Shown here: in pieces, positions 24,901 through 27,900 of the stretch
Position numbering within the stretch: the stretch's first letter is position 1
Layout: every line of letters starts with the position of its first letter
Source of the DNA: Patiria pectinifera
Lineage: Eukaryota > Echinodermata > Asteroidea > Valvatida > Asterinidae
Assembly: GCA_029964075.1 (NCBI GenBank)
Contig: CM057140.1
Coordinates: 9,876,643-9,940,642, forward strand
Length of the DNA stretch: 64,000 nt
Reading direction: 5' to 3'
The notes under the pieces: model-generated
What the model was told of the DNA's origin: nothing
The model's database searches: none
Seen by the model: only the letters and a program-made list of their open reading frames with translations
Program-made: the position numbers and the translations under genes

Positions 24901-27900
24901 TCAAAGTTGTGCAGATGTATATAGTAAAAGAAGAGTAGTTTTCTTTTTTGTCAAAATGGAATAAACGGATTGAAAAGTTGTTAGCGAAAAATTGATTTTG
25001 TTGAAGTCGTTTTGGGAGGTTTTACAAAGTTCCCAATGTATATTGATGGCTCGTTTTATTGCAAAAAAAACCCAAAATAAACACTCATCTTTTGTCATTC
25101 TGGTTTATCACATACCATTCGTACTTACTCCATTATTGCTCACTTTTATCACAGGATGCGAAGGGTTCGCCTGAGGAAGGTGACGAGAAGAAGTTTGACC
25201 CTTCTGGCTTTGACAAAGACCTGGTGGAAAATCTGGAGCGAGACATCGTACAGAAAAACCCAAATGTCCACTGGTGAGTAACTGTAGACAAATCTGGCAG
25301 TCATCTTTGCTGAGATTGACACCATGCTCTCGCACGTGTCAGACGCATTCTTAATTTGAGGCACCTGTTTCATTTGAAAACCTTATTGGTTGAACAAGCA
25401 CTAATTTGCATACTGACCAACTGCAGGCAAGTATGGTGCCATGACTGTAATGGCTGATAAGTTAAGTCTATCACTGGTCTGTAACCTAAAATTTTAAAAG
25501 AAACAGCAATAAGGTAGTTGTTAAAATCTCTTAAGTCTCATGAATCATTTTCGTATCAAATTTATGTGAACCAGCTTTATACTAGCTGAAGTCTTCCTAG
25601 ACTTTTGAAAATTGACTCAACATGATTTTGAACTATCAAATAAAACTCTAGTCTATGGAATATGCCCTTGCACAGCAAGGGTCTATGATATGCGAGCAGA
25701 TTCAGCGATTAATTATGCAAAACAAGACTGCGTCTTGACCTCGAGATTCTGACCATTCAGCGGGCGCCTTCTATCGGGTCTTCCATAACCCGAAGTTGCG
25801 TTACAAAAACATGGCATCCAAATTGACCAATCCACAGCTTAGTCAGCATTTCTGATCGAAATGACGTCACAGTCTTTAAAAACCACTCCGATTTGCAGGC
25901 GCACAGGGTCGCATAAAATTTACATGCTACGATATATCAGACGTTCAACCGTGGCTCTGCCCACGTGAATGTCTGATCCTTGAACTAATGAGACAAGCTC
26001 TGCAAAACACGTATTATAAAACAAGTCAATGAAATTGACATTTCTTGGCCTACAGGACTGACATCGCCGGCCTGACCGAAGCCAAGAGACTCCTTGAAGA
26101 GGCCGTGGTTCTACCTCTCTGGATGCCAGACTACTTCAAGGGAATACGCAGGCCATGGAAGGTAAGCCTGTGTGGCTGCGACTAGCAATAACACACGTCT
26201 ATGGAAAGTGGCTTCAGCCGCTCCCATAGACACATGTGCAATCCCAAGCCATAGCCAAGTGATTCAGACTTGGCCCAAGAAACTTGAACTTGTAAAATGT
26301 CAAGAGTAATGAAGATAATTTTGGCGTTGTAGGTTGTTTCATCACCGACACCACGAGCTGACACTCGCGCGCTAGTGGATGTCAGTTCGTGAAAACCGCA
26401 TAAACATCAATTTCAGTTTCACGAACTGTCACCTGGGTGTGCGTGTGTACATCGGACACTGAAGCGTAATAGAACAATTTTCGTTTTCAGAACCTGACAC
26501 ACAAGAATGTTGCGGCAATACAATTCAAAGAAAAACGCTTTTAAAGGTTTGACACAATTTAATCCATTCGTATACTTGTGGGATTACTCAAAAATATAAT
26601 CAAAACCTTCTTAACTGGTGAAATTAAGATCAGCGTCAGTTCATGAAAACGAAAATGTACAGAGTGCGTGCTAGAAGTGCCGCACTGTATCGGGTGTCGG
26701 GTCGTGAAAACCAAAATAATGCGGTGATGTAAAATAGGCGCAACTGGGTGTCAGTTCGTGGTGTCGGTGACGGTTTATAATGTATGTAGATGCCAGAATA
26801 AGTGAAGTCATCAGGACAAAAATAATGTTCACGATGAGTTGCGTTACTTTTTGCAGTAGGTAGAAATTCATCTTGAAAATTAGTAAATAGGTTTTTTGGA
26901 ACAAAACAAAAACTGGGATCAAAAAGTGGGAAACTTATGTTCAAAATGTGAAGTGCAAAAGAAAAACAGGTATCGTTGATAATTAACGTAGATTTTTCAT
27001 CTTGAAAAACCCTGAAAATACGAGCAAGCTTGTTTTTTTCCTGATTTTCATAGGGTGTACTCATGGTTGGGCCCCCCGGTACCGGCAAAACCCTCTTGGC
27101 AAAAGCCGTGGCCACCGAGTGCGGCACCACGTTCTTCAACGTGTCCTCCAGCACCCTCACGTCCAAATGGCGCGGGGAGTCTGAGAAACTGATGCGCTTG
27201 CTCTTTGAAATGGTACGTAGGAGCCAATATACAGCTTCATTTTTCTTTCTTTGACACTAGGGGGTTCTGATGATGGGCCCGCCAGGAACTGGCAAAACAT
27301 TGCTGGCCAAAGCGGTGGCCACTGAGTGCGGGACGACGTTTTTTAATGTCAGTTCCTCGACGCTGACTTCTAAGTATCACGGGGAGTCTGAGAAACTGGT
27401 GCGAATTTTGTTTGAGATGGTACGTATCTGTGTGAGGAATGGAGGACTGCACCCAATTTCACAAAGCGTTGCAACTAGTCGCAACTCGAGTTACGACGTG
27501 TAACACGTCGTAACTCGCGACGCATCGTATGATCCATTTCATGAAACTGTGATGTGTTGAACGCATCGTAAGTTCCTTGACAAAGGCTTAAAGGGAATAT
27601 ACATCATTTGCTTTTGCTGTAATTTTCAGAAATGGATGGAATTGGGGGTTGGAAATATATAGCAAATATAGTTACACTGACTTTTTTGAGGTTTTGGGTT
27701 CGAAAATGCTATAAAAACCAAGAAAAACAATCATTTTCCTGTAGTCTGGTTCCCTGACTCCATTTAAGAAGAAACAGAGCAGTTTACATACATTGGGGAA
27801 TTATAAGGTCAGGGAACCAGTCTAGCTGGCTTGTACCCGTTCATAGGTGTGTAATCGATTGCAAACAAGTGCGATGGTCAACTGGGGCCAGTATTTGAAA

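Follow-up and report, generated by a model that had tools for sequence, protein, structure and literature searches.

A tandem pair of pore-loop-1 exons, probably mutually exclusive, in the katanin p60 gene of the sea star Patiria pectinifera

The katanin p60 gene (KATNA1) of Patiria pectinifera contains two neighbouring homologous exons, A (27054-27212) and B (27261-27419), that are of equal length and phase and encode the same residue at 48 of 53 positions. Coordinates refer to the window, the 64,000-nucleotide stretch of genomic DNA that was analysed, and KATNA1 lies on its forward strand. By their anatomy, A and B are best read as a mutually exclusive pair of the tandem-duplication type, with one of the two exons presumably entering each mRNA. 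The reading that we favour, at a probability of roughly three in four, holds that the pair descends from an old tandem duplication, that joint inclusion is sterically prevented, and that the two resulting enzymes grip tubulin differently.

Results

An intact KATNA1 gene with two sixth exons

The KATNA1 coding region (21906..32458) comprises ten exons per isoform. Five exons (21906-22067, 22603-22793, 24063-24264, 25155-25273 and 26056-26161) precede the sixth, which is either A or B, and four exons follow (29043-29169, 29562-29696, 30960-31086 and 32260-32458). GT and AG dinucleotides are present at all junctions, and the product reads through 508 residues without interruption whichever copy is joined. 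Pfam matches assign KATNA1_MIT to the first exon, AAA to the sixth and seventh, and Vps4_C to the last; the closest PDB matches are katanin A-like 1 and A1. With a KATNA1-type MIT domain, an AAA domain and a Vps4_C helix all present in the predicted product, the gene is identified as katanin p60.

Exons A and B are each 159 nt long, in phase 0 and open, with AG immediately before and GTACGT immediately after, in agreement with the initial annotation at every coordinate rechecked. Both encode a Walker A motif and pore loop 1, the latter reading K-W-R-G in A and K-Y-H-G in B. The flanking boundaries at 26161 and 29043 were likewise recovered as they had been proposed. They belong to the exons common to both isoforms: 26056..26161 upstream, with a GTAAGC donor that would serve A or B, and 29043..29169 downstream, which encodes the Walker B region and whose acceptor would also serve either copy.

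Splice signals within the 48-nt gap

The 48 nt between the two copies (27213..27260, forward strand) hold the donor of A, a branch-point-like TTCAT, a pyrimidine tract and the acceptor of B. The candidate branch-point adenosine of TTCAT is base 27 of the gap, 22 nt upstream of exon B; a second motif, TTGAC (-7), is too near the acceptor. As the entire gap is 48 nt long, the distance from the donor to a candidate branch point falls under about 50 nt. An in-frame TGA lies inside the gap, so its retention would truncate the protein. The remaining nine KATNA1 introns measure 392-1623 nt, and 20 introns in 19 other AAA loci of the same genome are estimated at 275 nt or more, these lengths being rough tblastn gaps between split AAA matches, two or three of which rest on poor matches. 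Both comparisons favour steric exclusion, as does the position of the candidate branch point, akin to the 25-41 nt of OGDH discussed below.

The splice sites themselves do not set one copy above the other. From -25 to -5, pyrimidines occupy 18 of 21 positions before A and 17 of 21 before B, and the predicted U1 pairing of donors A and B is -6.5 and -6.8 kcal/mol, within the -5.4 to -11.2 kcal/mol spanned by the ten donors of the gene. With donor pairing nearly equal and both acceptors rich in pyrimidines, the choice between A and B is not readable from the sequence; ordinary acceptors together with near-equal donors do favour mutually exclusive use of the pair.

In the mechanism that we propose, A and B would be rivals for one donor, at 26161, and one acceptor, at 29043. 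The 48-nt gap would have to contain the branch point of B, placing it too near the donor of A for U1 and U2 snRNPs to assemble together, and the donor of A would thus be committed to the acceptor at 29043. When A is used, its donor would splice past B to 29043; when B is used, the donor at 26161 would serve the acceptor of B, and A would be skipped.

The initial annotation had held the gap to be too short for ordinary spliceosome assembly. Its length is as claimed, but such a length does not preclude splicing outright: introns of 43, 49 and 56 nt are spliced in humans, and while those of 43 and 49 nt are G-rich with a special enhancer, the accessible text of the same source describes some ultra-short introns that lack G-richness and have both a pyrimidine tract and a canonical branch site (PMC4463651). 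That introns of similar length are spliced in humans, some without being G-rich, weighs against steric exclusion.

It is this leeway that leaves room for the strongest competing account, in which both exons are used but a PTB-like repressor or an RNA structure imposes the exclusion, the short gap being incidental. According to the accessible text of a survey of human exon clusters, a donor-branch distance below 50 is predicted in 57 of 629, and most clusters display neither steric spacing nor another simple explanation (PMC5740500); long inverted repeats are also found in both introns flanking the katanin pair. Against regulation as the cause, the gap is far outside the intron lengths measured in this genome, and an RNA hairpin within it was rejected, as the gap folds more weakly than its shuffles (z +1.63; 196 of 200 shuffles at least as stable). 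The inverted repeats, considered as a pairing structure between the flanking introns, look instead like the arms of mobile elements. Exclusion by regulation with an incidental gap is accordingly regarded as unlikely, though it is the best placed of the alternatives.

The repeats were characterized in their own right. The intron after exon B contains a repeat of ~525 nt with inverted ends (27588-28111) that is 98.9% identical to an upstream copy at 10716-11240 and ~80% identical to others near 42156-42715, 55886-56365 and 58885-59423; judged by these copies, 27588-28111 and 10716-11240 represent a mobile element that was recently inserted or copied. Before exon A, the intron contains a 23-nt inverted repeat (26342-26364 and 26748-26770, 96% complementary) that has no counterpart elsewhere in the window at E 1e-5 and likely marks the ends of another small mobile element.

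Divergence and constraint

Exons A and B differ at 44 of 159 nt, with 8, 4 and 32 differences at codon positions 1, 2 and 3. A recount returned the figures given earlier: 35 of 53 codons differ, 30 of them silently, and 5 of 53 residues are replaced (from A to B: V5M, W39Y, R40H, M47V and L49I). The program's count of 14 non-synonymous differences is inflated by serine codons needing three steps. Differences are found at 20 of the 28 comparable fourfold sites and pS is 0.756 by Nei-Gojobori counting, so that silent sites are saturated. Fourfold identity between A and B (8/28) is about that of either copy with KATNAL2 from the same genome (7/20 for A, 6/20 for B), which places the duplication beyond what fourfold sites can date. 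When 44 random changes were simulated in exon A, a mean of 27.2 residues were altered, none of 20,000 runs gave five replacements or fewer, and a stop arose in 68% of runs.

Silent saturation, the small number of replacements and the simulation together argue that protein-level constraint has acted on both copies ever since they diverged, bearing out the suggestion that both are old and constrained. A neutral dead copy was rejected on the same evidence, and an assembly echo or recent duplicate on silent-site saturation. The possibility that a single exon is used, while the other is vestigial or cryptic and has stayed open by chance, is improbable on these grounds and because neither copy contains a stop and the splice sites of both are intact. 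That both copies are open, in phase and constrained at saturated silent sites favours their mutually exclusive use.

Similarity between the copies ends at the exon edges, with 40-45% identity in flanks of 20-40 nt; the first 10 nt after the two donors are 70% identical. Within the exons, codons 41-46, just past the pore loop, are identical over 19 nt (27173-27191 and 27380-27398), with P of 0.013 if the shuffling of identities respects degeneracy classes and 0.029 if it does not. This weak signal could stem from an exonic splicing enhancer common to both copies or from local gene conversion.

Reading frame and joint inclusion

All four combinations, namely A only, B only, both and neither, keep the reading frame. 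Nonsense-mediated decay would therefore not police double inclusion or skipping, and any exclusion would need to be imposed by the spliceosome or by regulators; that the frame does not police errors counts against exclusivity. Joint inclusion through a 27212-27261 junction would, as had been anticipated, place two Walker A motifs in frame, in a protein of 561 residues. The preserved frame and the splicing of human introns of 43-56 nt (PMC4463651) speak for such a product. We nonetheless regard it as very unlikely, as a single AAA fold would have to accommodate an additional beta-strand/P-loop/helix block, and the gap is not G-rich (8 G of 48, no GGG).

Draft assemblies do contain false tandem duplicates, but two haplotypes placed end to end can be dismissed here, since differences at 20 of 28 fourfold sites and unalike flanks are far above allelic difference and both copies lie within one 15.4-Mb contig.

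A single tandem case in the genome

A search of the 613.5-Mb genome of the same species with the exon-A peptide returned matches of at least 91% identity only at A and B, the next being KATNAL2 at 76% over 49 residues; among the best candidates in this genome, no processed intronless copy preserving one isoform was seen. The search yielded 33 P-loop places at E up to 1, with only the best candidates scored, and A and B are the only copies among them that stand side by side. Thirty of these places were taken up as loci, two of which are the window. In the 28 others, all examined, no second whole Walker A copy was detected within ~1.5 kb (tblastn, E 0.01), which argues against tandem P-loop exons being a recurrent feature of this genome. 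One of the 28 (L172) has a single P-loop split across two distant pieces. Contigs C7, C8 and C14 carry three pairs of places separated by 4-9 kb, which are presumably two-domain AAA genes. The restriction of side-by-side copies to the window, across the 33 P-loop places, favours the mutually exclusive reading.

A third exon copy was not found, a repeat search of 20000-40000 returning two copies. Among viral contigs, the best 80 of 127 matches reached at most 61% identity, and among genome contigs the best 80 of 512 reached at most 63%, with no animal record among the matches listed in either case, and these matches were left aside. A search of the assembly for COX1, as a marker of lineage, gave no match.

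Replacements on pore loop 1

The Walker A sequence, GPPGTGKT, is identical in A and B. The initial annotation had called each copy a Walker A exon and gave no positions for the replacements. Walker A is indeed present, but the label does not capture where the copies differ: two of the five replacements, at residues 39 and 40, fall on adjacent substrate-facing residues of pore loop 1. With Walker A the same in both copies and two changes on the substrate-contacting loop, pore-loop-1 exon is the better name. Codons 39-41 occupy 27168..27176 in exon A and 27375..27383 in exon B, and encode W-R-G and Y-H-G, respectively, at the position of the X-R-G motif, to which A conforms and B does not. The accessible text of the source for this motif identifies it with pore loop 1 and assigns to this positively charged entrance the recognition and remodelling of tubulin; in the same place it loosely equates pore loops with Walker motifs (PMC8369831).

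At the five differing positions, the KATNA1 and KATNAL1 entries of the PDB read V5, Y39, R40, V47 and L49. Relative to them, A has changed at Y39W and V47M, and B at V5M, R40H and L49I. The sequence SKWRGDSEK occurs both in MEI-1 and in KATNAL2 of the same genome, and three further loci of the sea star, which by their motifs we read as similar to ATAD1, VPS4 and spastin, carry Y, L and V, respectively, as the second pore-loop residue. Published sea-urchin katanin p60 presumably reads K-Y-H-G at pore loop 1, in which case B would be the form already familiar from echinoderms and A its variant.

The chance that both pore-loop residues would be among five replacements in 53 is 0.007, for a test chosen post hoc. 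Their presence among the five favours a functional difference; against it, the argument rests on position, and three of the five replacements (V5M, M47V and L49I) are conservative and outside the loop. In a simulation, two positively charged pore loops wind round the tubulin tail (PMC12076492), and for Msp1 the authors suggest that the adjacent pore-loop-1 aromatics W187 and Y188 perhaps supply most of the grip (PMC7018516), residues that would correspond to katanin residues 39 and 40 by our own matching.

Exon choice would thus swap W-R-G (A) for Y-H-G (B) in pore loop 1, and, judging from residue position, the two katanins are expected to differ in the strength or preference with which they hold tubulin tails. 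The A and B forms could also mix within one hexamer. A more specific and tentative proposal, to which we give somewhat less than even odds, is that exon choice acts as a substrate-grip switch of a severing AAA motor, W-R-G and Y-H-G reading the tubulin tail differently (through charge, glutamylation or histidine-mediated local pH) in different cells or stages, possibly in mixed hexamers.

Other features of the window

The last KATNA1 intron contains a predicted tRNA-Thr (GGT anticodon; 32062-32135, same strand), which may be either a real tRNA gene or a tRNA-derived repeat. Two further KATNA1 introns contain duplicated blocks (22211-22560 and 24384-24677) that are ~2.17 kb apart and 84-88% identical. 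Upstream of KATNA1 lie exons of a HECT-domain ubiquitin ligase (9763-12349, forward strand) and an RWD-domain exon (18864-19358, reverse strand). The segment 17051-17913 is repetitive and open in several frames, for up to 257 aa, with repeats like WNGPFQEGGAYGQI; it is likely a minisatellite rather than a gene.

Discussion

Large tandem exon arrays of the Dscam type, from which one exon is chosen at a time, are controlled by RNA structure; the katanin pair differs in comprising two exons, with no supporting RNA structure found. Another precedent is alpha-tropomyosin, in which Smith and Nadal-Ginard reportedly demonstrated in 1989 that a branch point too near a donor forbids exon joining. The steric principle proposed for katanin is the same, in another gene and protein, the mechanism having been shown in alpha-tropomyosin. 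A further precedent is OGDH, whose exons 4a and 4b are likewise old duplicates and are kept mutually exclusive by branch points mapped 25, 31, 36 and 41 nt from the upstream donor, confirming that steric exclusion is, as the initial annotation had it, a known mechanism (PMC7969005). Swapping 4a for 4b changes a regulatory property of the enzyme, and the katanin swap would also fall within an enzyme. The two differ in that the OGDH intron measures 118-131 nt in birds and mammals and uses distant branch points (PMC7969005), as opposed to a gap of 48 nt in katanin, and in that exclusivity was established by experiment for OGDH and for katanin is deduced from exon anatomy.

In overall sequence, in Walker A and in the combination of MIT and AAA domains, the gene resembles KATNA1 (5zql), KATNAL1 (6b5c) and C. 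elegans MEI-1 (6ugd); we take 5zql and 6b5c to be human proteins. Each of these has one pore loop 1, K-Y-R-G in 5zql and 6b5c and K-W-R-G in 6ugd, whereas the gene in the window encodes two. The W-R-G of A matches that of MEI-1 and of KATNAL2 from the same genome, and the Y-H-G of B is absent from the four katanins compared (5zql, 6b5c, 6ugd and the sea star's own KATNAL2).

We know of no AAA unfoldase for which alternative splicing is described as a means of retuning the pore loop. Within the accessible open-licence PMC literature, no earlier report was found of such an exon pair in katanin, consistent with the initial annotation, nor of alternative pore-loop exons in any AAA protein; the main text of the human cluster survey, as far as accessible, contains neither 'katanin' nor 'KATNA' (PMC5740500). 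Steric mutually exclusive splicing is already known from OGDH and alpha-tropomyosin.

Should the favoured reading be correct, the animal would tune the hold of katanin on tubulin by swapping one exon, without gene duplication. The W-R-G and Y-H-G pair, set in an otherwise near-identical protein, would then provide a natural test of how the tubulin code is read by pore loop 1, a problem for which artificial mutants are otherwise employed.
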